Assembly: GCF_001696605.3 (NCBI RefSeq)
Contig: NZ_CP031716.1
Span: forward strand, 2,914,001 to 2,978,000
Direction of reading: 5' to 3'
Source: Acinetobacter wuhouensis
GTDB taxonomy: Bacteria; Pseudomonadota; Gammaproteobacteria; Pseudomonadales; Moraxellaceae
Length of the DNA stretch: 64,000 bases
The position numbers were made by a program, and so were the translations under genes. Below the pieces are notes generated by a model. The model was not told the origin of the DNA and did not search any database. It was given only the letters and a program-made list of their open reading frames with translations. The first letter of the stretch is position 1. Each line of letters opens with the position of its first letter. Positions 41,467 to 49,554 of the stretch are shown here, piece by piece.

Positions 41467-44400
41467 ATGTCGACACTTGCCACCTTAAAAGCGCTTCTCG
41501 CCCAACGCATCCTGATCATTGACGGTGCGATGGGTACCATGATCCAACGCCATAAATTAGAAGAAGCCGACTATCGTGGTGAACGTTTTGCCGACTGGGC
41601 ATCGGATCTTAAAGGCAATAATGACCTTTTGGTTCTGACTCAACCGCAAATCATTCAGGGCATTCATGAAGCGTACCTGGATGCAGGTGCAGACATCATT
41701 GAAACTAACTCGTTCAATGGCACAAAAGTTTCAATGTCGGACTATCACATGGAAGAATATGTCCATGAGATCAACTTTGAAGCAGCACGCATTGCCAAAG
41801 CGGCGTGTGAAAAATATTCAACGCCTGAAAAACCACGTTTTGTGGCGGGTGTGCTTGGTCCTACATCACGTACCTGTTCGATTTCTCCAAATGTAAATGA
41901 CCCTGCGTTCCGTAACATTACTTTTGATGAGTTAAAAGAAAATTATATTGAAGCTGCACATGCCTTGATCGAAGGTGGTGCGGACATTCTCTTGATCGAA
42001 ACTGTATTCGATACCCTGAACTGTAAAGCAGCAATTTTTGCGGTTAAAGAGGTGTTTAATCAGCTTGGTTATGAATTGCCATTGATGATTTCAGGAACGA
42101 TTACCGATGCATCGGGTCGTACCCTCACAGGTCAAACTGCGGAAGCATTCTGGAACTCAGTCCGTCATGGTGATTTATTGTCGATTGGTTTTAACTGTGC
42201 GCTCGGTGCAGATGCCATGCGTCCACACGTAAAAACCATTTCCGATGTTGCCGATACATTTGTTTCAGCGCATCCAAACGCTGGCTTACCCAATGCCTTC
42301 GGTGGTTATGATGAAACCCCTGAAGAAACAGCTGCATTCTTAAAAGAATTTGCCGAAAGCGGTTTGATCAATATTACGGGTGGTTGTTGTGGTACCACAC
42401 CTGATCATATTCGTGCTATTTACAATGCAGTCAAAGACATCAAACCTCGCCAAGTGCCTGAAACCAAACCTGCATGCCGTTTAAGTGGTTTAGAGCCGTT
42501 TAACATTTATGATGATTCTTTGTTTGTAAATGTCGGTGAACGTACCAACGTCACAGGTTCTAAAAAATTCTTGCGTTTAATCCGTGAAGAAAACTTTGCT
42601 GAAGCGTTGGATGTGGCATTGCAACAAGTGGTTGCAGGCGCACAGGTGATCGACATTAACATGGATGAAGGGATGCTTGATTCGCAAGGTGCGATGGTGC
42701 ATTTCCTCAATCTGGTTGCATCTGAACCTGAAATTTCTAAAGTGCCGATCATGATTGACTCATCAAAATGGGAAATCATTGAAGCAGGCTTGAAATGCGT
42801 TCAGGGTAAACCTGTAGTGAACTCAATTTCCCTCAAAGAAGGTTATGACGAGTTTGTACAAAAAGCACGTTTATGCCGTCAGTACGGTGCAGCGATCATC
42901 GTCATGGCATTTGATGAAACAGGTCAGGCAGATACAGCAGCACGTAAGCGTGAAATCTGTAAGCGTTCTTATGATGTATTGGTCAATGATGTTGGCTTCC
43001 CTGCTGAAGATATTATTTTCGATCCAAACGTGTTTGCTGTGGCAACAGGGATTGAAGAACATAACAACTATGCAGTTGATTTTATTGAAGCGACAGGTTG
43101 GATTAAACAAAATCTGCCACATGCAATGATTTCAGGCGGTGTATCTAACGTATCGTTCTCATTCCGTGGTAATGAGCCTGTACGTGAAGCGATTCATTCT
43201 GTGTTCCTTTATCATGCCATCAAACAAGGCATGACCATGGGTATTGTAAATGCCGGTCAAATGGCGATTTACGATGACATTGATGCTGAATTAAAAGCTG
43301 CGGTTGAAGATGTGATTCTGAATCAGAATCAGGGCGAAAGTCATCAAGAAGCGACTGAAAAATTGCTTGAAGTGGCTGAAAAATACCGTGGTCAGGGTGC
43401 AGCACAAAAACAGGTCGAAAATCTGGAATGGCGTGAACTTCCTGTCGAAAAACGTCTTGAACATGCTTTGGTTAAAGGCATCACCACTTTTATTGATGAA
43501 GATACCGAAGAAGCACGTTTAAAATCAGCACGTCCGCTTGATGTGATCGAAGGTCCATTGATGGATGGTATGAATGTGGTCGGTGACCTGTTCGGTTCAG
43601 GTAAAATGTTCCTCCCACAAGTGGTGAAATCTGCCCGTGTAATGAAACAAGCTGTAGCTTGGCTGAATCCATTCATTGAAGCTGAAAAGTCTGGCGGTCA
43701 GTCTAAAGGTAAAGTCCTGATGGCAACCGTAAAAGGCGACGTACATGACATTGGTAAAAATATCGTGGGCGTGGTTTTAGGCTGTAATGGTTATGACATC
43801 ATTGACCTTGGCGTGATGGTACCTGCTGAGAAAATTTTACAGACTGCGATTGATGAAAATGTCGATATTATCGGTTTGTCAGGTTTAATTACGCCATCTT
43901 TGGATGAAATGGTTTTTGTTGCCAAAGAAATGCAACGTAAAGGTTTCCATGTGCCATTGTTGATTGGTGGTGCAACAACCTCTAAAGCACATACAGCAGT
44001 AAAAATTGACCCACAATATTCAAATGATGCGGTGATTTATGTTGCCGATGCATCACGTGCTGTGGGTGTGGCAACGACTTTACTTTCTAAAGAAATGAAG
44101 CCGAAATTTGTTGAAGAAACCCGTGCGGAATATGAAAAAGTCCGTGAACGTATTGCCAACAAACAGCCAAAAGCTGCCAAACTGTCTTATGCAGAATCCA
44201 TTGAAAATGGTTTGAAAATTGACTTCGCAGCGAATAAGCCTGCGAAGCCAAACTTCATTGGTATGCAAACACTCACCAATTATCCGCTTGAAACATTGGT
44301 GGAATATTTTGACTGGACACCATTCTTTATTTCATGGAGTCTGGCAGGTAAATTCCCGAAAATTCTGACAGATGAAGTAGTGGGTGAAGCTGCGACTGAT

Positions 44401-45156
44401 TTATACAATCAAGCGCAGGAAATGTTGAAAGACATTATTGAAAATAAACGTTTTGATGCACGTGCTGTGTTTGGCATCTACCCTGCGAACCGTTCTGCGG
44501 CTGATTCTGTTGAAGTTTATACGGAAGATGGTCAATCGGTGACACATACATTCCATCATATCCGTCAGCAGTCTGACAAAGTCACAGGCAAACCAAACTT
44601 GTCATTGGCTGACTTTGTGGCAACGAAAGATCAAGCGGAAGACTGGTTAGGTGGTTTCACCGTATCGATCTTTGGTGCGGAAGAAATGGCGCATGAATAT
44701 AAAGCCAAAGGTGATGATTATTCTGCGATTCTTGCGCAATCTTTAGGTGACCGTTTTGCTGAAGCGTTTGCGGAGCATTTGCATGAGCGTATCCGTAAAG
44801 AGTTCTGGGGCAATCAAGCGTCTGAAAGTTTAAGCAATGAAGAGTTGATTAAAGAGAAGTATGTCGGTATTCGTCCTGCACCAGGCTACCCTGCTTGTCC
44901 TGAGCATTCTGAAAAAGCATCTTTGTTTGACTGGTTAGGTTCTACCGATAAGATTGGTACGCAACTGACTACTAGTTTTGCGATGTGGCCACCGTCATCT
45001 GTCAGCGGTTTCTATTATGCAAACCCGCAGTCTGAATACTTTAACGTGGGTAAAATTGCTCAGGATCAGCTTGAGGATTATGCGAAGCGTAAGGGTTGGA
45101 CAATGGATGAGGCGAAGCGTTGGTTAGCGCCTAATTTGGATGATTCGGTTCAGTAA
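41467..45156 (+). CDS. metH: Cobalamin-dependent methionine synthase
   Basis: A 1229-residue modular enzyme that makes methionine from homocysteine and 5-methyltetrahydrofolate. Domains in order: homocysteine-binding (residues ~1-335, zinc cysteines in GFNCALGAD and [10 protein letters not shown]), methyl-folate binding (~350-620, [14 protein letters not shown]), cobalamin-binding (~640-890, with the B12 signature DVHDIGKN and the lower [12 protein letters not shown]), and S-adenosylmethionine reactivation domain (~900-1229, [12 protein letters not shown]). It is complete. Its terminator follows 15 bp after the stop. Confidence 0.97.
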
Positions 45157-45170
45157 CTTTCCATTAGAAT

Positions 45171-45203
45171 AAAAAATCCCCTCGAGTGAGGGGATTTTTT
45201 TTA
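45171..45203 (+). terminator. Terminator after metH
   Basis: AAATCCCCTC-GAGT-GAGGGGATTT followed by TTTTT. It marks the border of the core metH unit and the AT-rich accessory stretch that follows. Confidence 0.9.
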
Positions 45204-45256
45204 CTTAGGAAACAGTATATAATCTTAATAATAATTAATTACTTGTCACAATATTC

Positions 45257-47020
45257 ATGAAGCGTAATTGGTCAGACTTAATCTCTATTTATGGAAATAT
45301 TCAGGGTGCTAGAGAAGGGTTCGAAGAAGTTTGCCGAAGAATAATTAAAGAACTATATCCTAATGAAAACGTAAAACGTGTTGAACTAAATCAAGGTGAT
45401 GCAGGTATTGATATATTTGTAGGGAATATTCTTAGTGAAATCATAATCTTTCAATGCAAATTTCATTTAAATCAATTAGGAGACTCCCAAAAGAGTCAAA
45501 TACGTGAGTCCTTCAAAAGAATTATTGAAAATAAGGATATCAATTGTGGAGAATGGGTTCTCTGCCTCCCTAAAAATTTGACACTTGAAGAACATTTCTG
45601 GTGGCAAAAATGGACTGAAACTCAAATTATTAAGTTTAATTTAAAAAAAGATTTTTTTAAGCTTTTAGATGGAGAGGACTTAATCAATTATCTTAAAAAA
45701 TTTGATTTATATGATGATATATTTCAAATTAAAGAACTTCTAATAGCTAAAGAAACAAATAATATAGTTAAAGAAACTAATAATTTAATTTCGCAAAAGG
45801 TGGCTTTCTTCGATCCTTATCACTCAAGATTACCTAAAGTCATATGGTCAAGGTATATTGGTATTCAAACACGTAAAAATACACCTTTAATAAATGGTCA
45901 TAAAATCTATATAGGATCCGCTGGATCTGAATGGAATAAAGCTGATAAATATGATGGGGCATATTGTTTAGATATTGATACTGGACAAATCATTTGGTTT
46001 TTTGCAACAAATTCAGATGTTAATGAAATTGCTTTACTTGATGGTTTTATATATTTCGGTTGTGATAATGGTTATTTATATTGCCTTTCAAGTTTAGAAG
46101 GGAAATTGATTTGGAAATTAAAACTAGATTCTGGAGTCATAACTACAATTATTAAACATATGAGATCCCATGATTATTATTTATTAGTAATAACTTATCA
46201 AGGCAACATGTATTGGTTAGATCCAATAAATGGAGACGTTTTTGATAAAGTTCAGACTAAAGAAACGATTATGGGTGATATAAAAACTTTTGGACTAACT
46301 CATGATCAAAATATCATCATACCGACTACATCTGGTCAATTATTAATTTATGGTGAAAATAATTTTCAATTCCAATTATTAAAAAGAATACAACTTAAAT
46401 ACCCAGATGAATATTCAAAAACTGGTTATTCAATTCCAGAAATATACAGCAAACCATTGCTACATGAAAATTTTTTATACATTTCTTATTCTCGTGAGAC
46501 ATACTATTCCTATCCTCCTATTTGCAAAGTCAATTTAGATACAGGAAATATTATTTGGCACTCAAGTCCCATAGATAATTCTCATCATTATGGAAATATA
46601 CGCACAAATTTATTGTTATATAAAAATGAAGTAATTTTTACTCACCCATACTCTAATGAACTAGGTGGTGTTGATAGTTCATCAGGAAAAAACACATGGA
46701 TACTACCCATTGGTAAATCAATGTTTCAACAATGGTCTTCTCCAATAATTCATCAAAGCTTTTGTTATTTAGCCAGACATGATGGATATTTATATAAAAT
46801 CAATCTTGAAAATCACACAAAAGAATGGGGACTATTTCTTGGTTCTCATCAATGTCATGGGGTTGTTTATGACAAGTTTCAGGAACAAACAAATGAATTC
46901 GAAGCTACTGAATGGGAAAATAGAGTTGGTTTTTCTATCTACTCAACTCCTAAACTAGTTAATAATAAGATAATTATTGGTACAGGCGAAGGTTACTTAT
47001 ATTGCATCGAGAATATTTAA
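45257..47020 (+). CDS. PD-(D/E)XK (Mrr-like) nuclease fused to a PQQ-type beta-propeller
   Basis: A 587-residue protein of unrecognised system. Residues ~1-150 form a restriction-endonuclease-like domain: Glu23 (GFEEV), Asp52 in QGDAGIDIF and Gln66/Lys68 in FQCKF make the E...D...QxK active site. Residues ~150-185 are a helical linker. Residues ~200-587 carry repeats of D-x-x-x-G-x-x-x-W and GYLYCL type (for example DTGQIIW, EGKLIW, DTGNIIW, SGKNTW and GYLYCL, GYLYKI, GYLYCI) expected for a 6-8-bladed PQQ-like propeller. No signal peptide is present, so it is cytoplasmic. Base use is clearly more AT-rich than metH, with many ATA, TTA and AGA codons, suggesting acquisition. A defence or nucleic-acid-surveillance role is inferred. 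Confidence 0.8.
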   Translation: MKRNWSDLISIYGNIQGAREGFEEVCRRIIKELYPNENVKRVELNQGDAGIDIFVGNILSEIIIFQCKFHLNQLGDSQKSQIRESFKRIIENKDINCGEWVLCLPKNLTLEEHFWWQKWTETQIIKFNLKKDFFKLLDGEDLINYLKKFDLYDDIFQIKELLIAKETNNIVKETNNLISQKVAFFDPYHSRLPKVIWSRYIGIQTRKNTPLINGHKIYIGSAGSEWNKADKYDGAYCLDIDTGQIIWFFATNSDVNEIALLDGFIYFGCDNGYLYCLSSLEGKLIWKLKLDSGVITTIIKHMRSHDYYLLVITYQGNMYWLDPINGDVFDKVQTKETIMGDIKTFGLTHDQNIIIPTTSGQLLIYGENNFQFQLLKRIQLKYPDEYSKTGYSIPEIYSKPLLHENFLYISYSRETYYSYPPICKVNLDTGNIIWHSSPIDNSHHYGNIRTNLLLYKNEVIFTHPYSNELGGVDSSSGKNTWILPIGKSMFQQWSSPIIHQSFCYLARHDGYLYKINLENHTKEWGLFLGSHQCHGVVYDKFQEQTNEFEATEWENRVGFSIYSTPKLVNNKIIIGTGEGYLYCIENI

Positions 47021-47062: not shown

Positions 47063-47251
47063 TCACTCAATGACTAAATTTGCTGATGGACAGTAAAAAT
47101 CTACGATGTAATTTAAAAGCGGTTTCTGTCGATAAAACTGCAAACCTAAAATTTGCTTATTCCGAAGTTTTGACCACAATAACTTTTCTGCGTCGGTCAT
47201 ATTGCTACGTAAGTTACGCGAAACTTGTTTCAAGTTTTTATTGTAAGGTTT
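47063..47251 (-). pseudogene. DUF559 endonuclease fragment (decayed)
   Basis: The minus strand encodes a 62-residue stretch with the N-terminal half of a DUF559 (PD-(D/E)XK) protein: KPYNKNLKQVSRNLRSNMTD, then AEKLLWSKLRNKQILGLQF and FYRQKPLLNYIVDFYCPSANLVIE. It is bounded by an in-frame TAG where the ATG would be expected (47252-47254) and a TGA (47063-47065) right after VIE, where the family continues with VDGSQH. About half the domain is missing, so it is a remnant. It lies between the nuclease-propeller gene and the NERD helicase. Confidence 0.82.
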
Positions 47252-47275
47252 CTATTATTCTCAATTATTCTAATT

Positions 47276-47322
47276 TCTCCCTAACCCCCTCTTTAATTTT
47301 AATAAAGAGGGGTCTTAAAGGA
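47276..47322. repeat. CCCCTCTTT hairpin repeat near the DUF559 fragment
   Basis: TCTCCCTAACCCC followed by CCCCTCTTTA/TAAAGAGGGG. It is a reverse-orientation relative of the repeat at 35848-35886. It lies just upstream of the decayed DUF559 gene. The remainder of 47021-47439 contains nothing else that I can support. Confidence 0.6.
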
Positions 47323-47439
47323 GTTCGGATTTCAAATAAGTGTACCTAAAACAAGAAAAACAATCATCCTTTGATCAGAAAAGCCACTTTTCAATCAAAC
47401 TTCGCTCTGATTTCTTTTAAATTGGAATGTCAGTAAAAA

Positions 47440-49554
47440 CTAATCCACCAACCGTAATTTCTTTAACCTCGCCCGAATCCCACCCTCTTTACGATTATGC
47501 CGTTTCGCAATTTCCTTAATCGACAACTTTTCATCCATAAAAGCATCAATCAAACGGACTTCTTCATCCTCAGTCCATTTCTGCCCAATCATCGAATTAT
47601 CTGCTGCTTCAGTATTTGATGCTGGAACCTGTTCTTCAGCTTTTTCAATACTCACCTCAACCGAGCTTTCTATAACCTCGACCTGAGCAGCCGTTTGTTC
47701 ATATATCTCTTTAATATCGGCAAGAAAGCCTTTATTTTCACACCCTAAAATAAACAGTTTATTCTGAGCACGGGTCATACCCACATAAGCCAATTTCCGC
47801 TCAGAATCCATGTCACGGTTTTCACCAATACGTGGCATATAATCCAGTCCCACAAAAAATACATGTGGGAACTCCAGACCTTTAGAAGATTCAACATTCA
47901 TAATCTTGATTGAGTTTTTATTCAAATCCAGCGCTTTCTTTTCAGCACTGCTGAAAACCAATTCAACCTCAGTATCAGGCATATAAGTACTGAGTCTAGA
48001 CTTCAGTTCCGTCACAAAAATTTCGTATTCAGCAGACTTTGCCTGTAACACTGCAATATCTTTCGGTGCTGTATCGGATTTAAGTAACTGACGAATTTTG
48101 CGGGCAATCAGATCTGCCAAATGACGTACATCATTTTCATGATAAATACTCGGATATTCCCCTGTTTTACACTCACCTGTATCGGGGTCTAAAACACGGT
48201 CATATTCATCATTATTTTCTAGACTATCCAATGCTTTAGGATTTAAAAATGCTTTTGCTATATCCAAAATTTCTTTGGTATTACGATAGCATTTATACAG
48301 TTCAATGGGCTTTTTCCCCTGCACCTGTAAACCAACAGAACGCCAGCTCGGTTTTTTTCGGTTAAAAATATTCTGTGCAGGATCGTAGCAGAACAGAATA
48401 TTGTTGGTTTCAGCCTTCACCAGCTGAGATAAACCAATAATCCATTCCTGAGCAAAATCCTGCCCTTCATCAATCAGAATGGCATCGTACTTTTCGGTTT
48501 CAGCCAGACCGCTCTGTTCCAGATGATCCAGCAATATCTGCCCGACACGGCTGTTATAGTCCGTCTGCTTTTCATTTTTAAGCATGGACAGGTTTGCAGA
48601 TGTGATCTGCTTAACCAGACTATGGAAGTTTCTGACTTCAAGTTTTTCATTAAAGTCATCGCCAAACATATGCCGTAAATGGTTACACAGTGAATTGTTA
48701 TAACAGACCACTAAAATTTTATATTCGGGATAAATCGTTTTTAAATATTTAGCGCGACAAGCCAGCACCAGCGTTTTGCCACTACCTGCCACACCTTTTA
48801 AAATACGGTGTCCATCACCAATATTTTTCGCAATCGACTCCTGAGATAAATCAAGCGCTTTGACCTCCTGTGGCTCAACTGCAAACAGTTCATCCTGCTT
48901 AAATTCATTGACCCGAATTTCAGGAAAAATCATATAACGTAGAAATTTTTCTTCTGCGTAGCTCAGTGCTTCAAAAGGAAATGCGACGTCTTTAAATGCT
49001 GCGATCAGTTTATTTTTAAATGTTTTATTTTCAGCAACTAGGCGTAAGTCATCTTTATAAATGGTTTTATGTGCTGTTGTGATTGAAGGCAGGCTTAAGC
49101 CTATTTCATGGGCATCCTGTTCTTTCAGTTCGGTATAAATGACACAACTGCTGATCGGAAATTTGACATTGCCCTGATAAGGTCCATTCTGCTGTAAAAA
49201 TACCGCGGTCTTTTTAAATTGATTCAGAATATTCAGCATGCACTTACGCACCTGCTGTTCGGGGTTTTGTACAGGAACTGCCTTTGCATTATTTTTATTA
49301 TAAAAACGCCCTGTAAACATTTCGGGATTTAAGGTTTCAAAGCGTTCTTTTGACCAGTCTTTGACTTCGATCACCAGCAAACCATGCTCAGGCAACCATA
49401 CAATAAAATCGGTATAGCGGTTTAAAGCTTTAGGCTCATGCCAAATGATAGCATTATCATGCTGAAAAATAGTTTCAAGCAATTGATAAACCTTACGTTC
49501 CCCACTCGATGCAGACTTTAGTTGTTGTATACTGGGAGGAATCAGTTCAGCCAC
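47440..49554 (-). CDS. NERD-nuclease domain SF1 helicase (UvrD/Rep-like)
   Basis: A 704-residue fusion. The N-terminal NERD domain (residues ~15-130) has Glu19, Asp49 (YTDFIVWL) and Glu63/Lys65 (VIEVKDW), the PD-(D/E)XK core. A superfamily 1 helicase follows: Walker A GVAGSGKT, DEGQDF (II), CYDPAQNIF (III), YRNTKEIL (IV), ESSKGLEFPHVFF (V) and YVGMTRAQ (VI). The C-terminus (WTEDEEVRLIDAFMDEKLSIKEIAKRH) is a Myb/SANT- or HTH-like module found at the ends of several helicases. It probably processes DNA ends or damaged DNA. It is close to the nuclease-propeller gene, in convergent orientation. Confidence 0.87.
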   Translation of the reverse strand: MAELIPPSIQQLKSASSGERKVYQLLETIFQHDNAIIWHEPKALNRYTDFIVWLPEHGLLVIEVKDWSKERFETLNPEMFTGRFYNKNNAKAVPVQNPEQQVRKCMLNILNQFKKTAVFLQQNGPYQGNVKFPISSCVIYTELKEQDAHEIGLSLPSITTAHKTIYKDDLRLVAENKTFKNKLIAAFKDVAFPFEALSYAEEKFLRYMIFPEIRVNEFKQDELFAVEPQEVKALDLSQESIAKNIGDGHRILKGVAGSGKTLVLACRAKYLKTIYPEYKILVVCYNNSLCNHLRHMFGDDFNEKLEVRNFHSLVKQITSANLSMLKNEKQTDYNSRVGQILLDHLEQSGLAETEKYDAILIDEGQDFAQEWIIGLSQLVKAETNNILFCYDPAQNIFNRKKPSWRSVGLQVQGKKPIELYKCYRNTKEILDIAKAFLNPKALDSLENNDEYDRVLDPDTGECKTGEYPSIYHENDVRHLADLIARKIRQLLKSDTAPKDIAVLQAKSAEYEIFVTELKSRLSTYMPDTEVELVFSSAEKKALDLNKNSIKIMNVESSKGLEFPHVFFVGLDYMPRIGENRDMDSERKLAYVGMTRAQNKLFILGCENKGFLADIKEIYEQTAAQVEVIESSVEVSIEKAEEQVPASNTEAADNSMIGQKWTEDEEVRLIDAFMDEKLSIKEIAKRHNRKEGGIRARLKKLRLVD

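Follow-up and report, generated by a model that had tools for sequence, protein, structure and literature searches.

The 64,000-nucleotide stretch of Acinetobacter wuhouensis analyzed here (contig NZ_CP031716.1, positions 2,914,001 to 2,978,000; hereafter the window) encodes a protein of 587 residues in which an N-terminal PD-(D/E)XK nuclease is followed by a BamB/PQQ-type beta-propeller (45257..47020, + strand). This nuclease-propeller protein is probably a one-protein immune receptor that works without a nucleoside triphosphatase (NTPase), with the propeller as sensor and the nuclease as effector, and a role in phage defense is predicted. The exchange of effectors on the propeller, the intact catalytic residues, the defense-type slot that holds the gene and the signs of horizontal acquisition make this the best reading. 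The observations of an initial annotation of the gene were confirmed. Its interpretation, in which the propeller recognizes a phage or nucleic-acid cue and licenses the nuclease, is partly supported.

Effector Exchange on One Propeller Family

With the full-length sequence as query, 27 matches were obtained, the window protein included. Besides further propellers, they comprise eight relatives of the nuclease-propeller type, one of them truncated, as well as six TIR-propeller proteins and six in which the nuclease sits on a different C-terminus. The propeller family was delimited from the best 120 of 266 matches to a propeller taken from one of the TIR proteins. Its border is sharp: 50 members were found at E-values from 0 to 4e-63, and the next match follows at 7e-14, a gap of 49 orders of magnitude. 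The window protein lies inside this border (E 6.0e-105) and has all ten family-specific positions described below.

The N-termini of the 50 members were labeled as nuclease (15, of which 14 complete), TIR (25, of which 23 complete), caspase (two), deaminase (two), trypsin-like (one) and SIR2-like (one, by motif only). The remaining members comprise a secretion-type N-terminus alone, an unknown domain and two unlabeled fragments (P0051 and P0063); three truncated members were labeled by eye. Matches above the Pfam cut-offs underlie the caspase, deaminase and trypsin-like assignments. The SIR2-like start of P0048 matched neither Pfam nor PADLOC, and this protein could be a chimera. The active-site motifs are intact in the complete nuclease (14/14) and TIR domains (WCxxE, 23/23), as well as in the caspase (2/2), deaminase (2/2) and trypsin-like (1/1) domains.

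In an unrooted maximum-likelihood tree of the 50 propellers, from which fragment P0021 was left out, the nuclease proteins group in a single clade (96/96). TIR requires six changes and caspase two, its two fusions standing apart; for the eight labels together, eight changes are enough. The details of the tree are unsure because of its long branches, that of the window protein included. Effectors have been swapped on one conserved propeller family, and the presence of the same propeller in TIR, caspase, deaminase and trypsin-like proteins goes beyond the initial annotation. That other cell-killing domains share the propeller points to a family of bacterial one-protein immune receptors with no tie to any named system.

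Three of the propeller relatives (P0055, P0057 and P0060) have secretion-type N-termini, two of them carrying caspase or trypsin-like domains.

Family-Specific Positions of the Propeller

The 50 propellers, with an effective number of 22.5, were compared with 70 generic PQQ proteins aligned to the family. Many positions are invariant over the 50 family members. Ten positions are present in 49 to 50 of the 50 members and in no more than 8% of the generic proteins aligned at each, in an alignment where the register of the generic repeats may be off in places: Q204 (3/67 generic proteins), N208 (1/69), D254 (1/70), N256 (4/70), N447 (2/28), R449 (0/53), Y465 (1/67), F490 (2/38), W493 (3/51) and R507 (0/70). 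Positions of the fold itself are common to the generic proteins, such as W247 (68/70), W434 (67/70), W481 (67/70) and G510 (66/70). W553 and D509 were dropped as family-specific candidates, being frequent in generic PQQ proteins (26/34 and 36/70).

Nine of the ten positions, all except N256, lie off the predicted strands. The ten positions are kept, or nearly so, in nuclease, TIR, caspase, deaminase and trypsin-like members, and are retained even in the relatives with secretion-type N-termini. From their conservation, they may form a shared ligand site. Because these near-invariant, family-specific positions are also kept in secretion-type relatives, a conserved ligand is favored as the cue over the phage component or nucleic acid first proposed. 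With positions so nearly invariant and so restricted to the family, a single search for the ligand could account for how every member is activated.

Nuclease Domain and Protein Layout

The nuclease domain covers residues 1-156 (45257..45724, + strand). E23, D52, Q66 and K68, which the initial annotation had pointed out, are found at these sites and are invariant across the 14 sequences of alignment A2, whose full-length rows take in proteins with quite different C-termini. PADLOC models matched by the domain include LmuA (E 1.5e-21) and Avs2 (E 3.6e-7). The proposal of an Mrr-like nuclease effector held for the nuclease fold and the catalytic residues, but not for the kinship with Mrr: Mrr_cat (PF04471) scores 14.3 bits against a Pfam cut-off of 21, and by sequence the domain is closer to the LmuA and Avs nucleases.

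The structure prediction that the initial annotation had called for bore out the PD-(D/E)XK fold. A first, full-length model was built on 15 alignment rows. It was poor over the nuclease because six of these rows were TIR proteins and one was truncated, and the nuclease was therefore folded alone. The resulting model has a predicted local distance difference test score (pLDDT) of 86.5, and its fold matches include Avs4, LlaBIII, AspBHI, LmuA and Cap4. The alpha-beta core, the acidic residues and the (D/E/Q)xK motif that define the superfamily are all present. When A2 was run as a profile against the PDB, only propeller-type chains were matched, since the rows of A2 span the full length; this search has no bearing on the nuclease. 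In homologues, the nuclease is also joined to TPR, NACHT/AAA, NACHT-FGE, ABC-3C and unassigned C-termini.

The propeller occupies residues 190-587 (45824..47017, + strand), as the initial annotation had placed it, and is modeled as eight-bladed. Pfam identifies PQQ_2 in the C-terminal two thirds of the protein (42.6 bits, cut-off 27.6), where a sub-threshold match to the ACSF4 propeller is also found. A BamB or PQQ-enzyme identity was rejected, as the protein scores 44.4 bits against a BamB cut-off of 285.2 and has a nuclease at its N-terminus. Between the two domains lies a linker (residues 157-189; 45725..45823, + strand) with a long helix predicted at 158-184 in the full-length model, at low confidence; it may serve as a hinge or in oligomerization. 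The Pfam scan found neither an NTPase domain nor a delivery domain within the 587 residues. No hydrophobic start was seen by eye at the N-terminus, which is nuclease, and a PHROGs search gave no match.

Streptomyces plasmids also carry the nuclease domain (residues 13-123), in genes whose annotation is serine/threonine kinase (plasmid records H2 and H5-H7).

Genomic Location and Distribution

The nuclease-propeller gene, seen as a 587-residue open reading frame (ORF) with full-length homologues, is apparently a single-gene unit. It stands alone between metH (41467..45156, + strand; named after the initial annotation), the upstream border of a variable slot, and a convergent NERD-UvrD helicase gene (47440..49554, - strand; PADLOC candidate C3a187, E 2.9e-82), which belongs to the variable flank of metH. 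Directly behind metH, an inverted repeat (I1; 45159..45212, + strand) forms a hairpin with a T-rich arm that is terminator-like by inspection; a terminator consensus scan did not list it among its terminators. The same CCCCTC/GAGGGG hairpin lies 3' of metH in another genome (G002, locus L060), where it is followed directly by a homologue of the NERD-UvrD helicase. In the window, the apparently acquired stretch lies just past this hairpin. Repeats near the gene are short or lie inside it, and no border repeats were recognized around it.

The flank downstream of metH is highly variable across the genus. metH is present in 57 of 60 genus genomes, and flanks were taken from 40 of them (L036-L075), selected by the length of their contigs. 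With the first ORF of at least 150 residues in each locus counted as the slot gene and a PADLOC threshold of E <= 1e-10, at least 13 of the 40 slot genes match PADLOC: five PD-Lambda-3_B, two SIR2 genes (PDC-S25), two RelA/SpoT genes (PDC-S33), two AAA genes (PDC-S06), the SIR2 gene of a pair with a short prokaryotic Argonaute, and one NERD-UvrD helicase. In comparison, at least two of 39 ORFs located 5-8 kb further on do so (a reverse transcriptase and a ThsB-type protein). The difference has a Fisher p of 0.003 on these lower-bound counts, which come from the best 25 families among 47 and among 51, respectively, in genomes that are related. The helicase itself occurs near metH in two of the 40 other loci (L060 and L064). 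Candidate defense genes are frequent in the slot behind metH, which is also a place to seek further defense genes in the genus.

The gene was described initially as far more AT-rich than metH, and its GC content is indeed 29.4%, versus 43.4% for metH, and the lowest among 623 gene-length segments across the window. It is also rare. The genome of the window provides the only match in 175 genomes of the genus (E <= 1e-30) and in a phylum sample of 398 genomes (E <= 1e-50); among 38 relatives, three matched, namely this genome and two weak generic matches. The rarity and the low GC content suggest a recent horizontal acquisition, in line with the mobility expected at the outset. On plasmids, eight records matched, none covering 80% of the protein: the nuclease part was found in six Streptomyces records and one Rhodococcus record, and the propeller part in one from Halomicrobium. 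No homologue was detected in phage records at E 1e-8, and the 14 pattern matches in IMG/VR viral contigs included no relative.

The same fusion and a defense-type neighborhood, both to be sought elsewhere according to the initial annotation, were found. A pattern-based scan of genome contigs gave two loci, in Filimonas and Empedobacter. The Filimonas zeae homologue starts 68 nt after a homologue of PD-T7-1 (PADLOC E 6e-157), a system reportedly obtained by functional selection for phage defense. The Empedobacter brevis homologue lies near DUF4365-TPR, phosphoesterase/phosphoribosyltransferase and RES genes, with phage-integrase domains (an integrase fragment) about 7.5 kb away.

Comparison with Known Systems and Alternative Explanations

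As the initial annotation had suspected, the architecture matches no named system in PADLOC, Pfam or NCBIfam. Seven neighboring genes were scanned (the NERD-UvrD helicase, PitA, EmrA, EmrB, a thioesterase, porphobilinogen synthase and one unassigned). The nuclease resembles LmuA of Lamassu, but its C-terminus is a propeller and no SMC/ABC (LmuB-type) protein is encoded among these neighbors. Avs2 and Avs4 have a similar N-terminal nuclease, whereas here the STAND NTPase is missing and a propeller (190-587) takes the place of the sensor. The nuclease of CBASS Cap4 is also similar, but a propeller replaces SAVED and no CD-NTase was found among the seven neighbors. BamB and PQQ-type propellers share the fold type; the present one differs from them by its fusion to an effector and by the ten near-invariant positions that are rare in generic PQQ proteins.

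In excerpts of three papers (PMC7159879, PMC8195603 and PMC10907252), effector exchange and propellers appear as features of multi-gene conflict systems. The closest parallel is that of Kaur et al. 2020 (PMC7159879), whose excerpts likewise combine propeller-bearing components with swappable effectors in predicted immunity; those systems are multi-gene MoxR-vWA systems, however, and PQQ is not mentioned anywhere in the main text. Among the matches listed for the open-license PMC literature, and as far as their excerpts go, no fusion of a PQQ-type propeller to a TIR or nuclease effector is described.

These multi-gene systems (PMC7159879, in its excerpts) raise the alternative that the window protein is the effector of a larger conflict system, with an NTPase or adaptor partner encoded elsewhere in the genome, and the occurrence of nuclease homologues on NACHT or ABC-3C proteins points the same way. 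Judged by the immediate surroundings of the gene, this is unlikely, as it is on its own here between metH and the convergent gene, and the neighbors differ among the three genomes with context (the window, L002 and L003). A modification-dependent or sequence-specific restriction enzyme, in which the propeller would be a DNA or protein specificity module and the nuclease constitutively active on foreign DNA, is quite improbable: the same propeller bears TIR, caspase, trypsin-like and deaminase domains, which do not all act on DNA, and three propeller relatives have secretion-type N-termini. That the gene encodes a toxin, as part of a toxin-antitoxin or inter-bacterial conflict unit, or that it acts against plasmids instead of phages, is very improbable, since no recognized antitoxin or immunity gene adjoins the gene, the protein has no delivery domain, and it was not found full length on plasmids or in phages, even if the gene looks horizontally acquired, the effector set of the propeller family overlaps that of bacterial toxins, and an 89-residue ORF with a TTG start (47080-47349, + strand) behind the gene is a possible small partner.

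That ORF, situated between the nuclease-propeller and helicase genes, has no Pfam match and may not be a gene.

Proposed Mechanism

In the favored reading, the protein would by itself form an immune receptor, sensing with its eight-bladed C-terminal propeller and acting through its N-terminal nuclease. The family-specific propeller residues would bind a conserved ligand made or exposed during infection. Candidates are a phage protein whose fold is conserved, a protein of the host that is disturbed by phages, or a small molecule. Binding would free the nuclease, with the helical linker (158-184) and an altered oligomeric state as the probable means, and the freed nuclease would cut DNA, so that the phage is cleared or the cell killed. 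Neither an NTPase nor a fixed partner gene is apparently needed.

Many multi-effector bacterial immune sensors switch by means of an NTPase (Avs, NACHT) or signal through a nucleotide second messenger (CBASS). More tentatively, we propose an undescribed class of single-protein, NTPase-free receptors in which one BamB-like propeller senses a conserved ligand, possibly a small molecule or a guarded host component, with nuclease, TIR, caspase, deaminase and trypsin-like effectors swapped onto it, and in which exported members may respond to a ligand of this kind beyond the cytoplasm. If true, a propeller alone coupling recognition to many effectors would represent a simpler design, and the natural effector swaps offer ready-made comparisons.

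Other Observations at the metH Slot

Weak, sub-threshold matches of helix-turn-helix type were seen at the end of the NERD-UvrD helicase. In some genomes the slot holds transposase-like or lipoprotein-like genes, as judged by eye, and in one locus it holds a 475-residue protein (L070:11609-13033, - strand) without a PADLOC or Pfam match. A three-gene unit (L044:9586-13947, - strand) includes a 575-residue protein with a sub-threshold TnsA-like match (E 0.0035), a 497-residue protein matching PDC-M26A, and a third gene scanned against PADLOC only. The short prokaryotic Argonaute and its SIR2 partner are found in the slot of another species (L069:981-3908, - strand).
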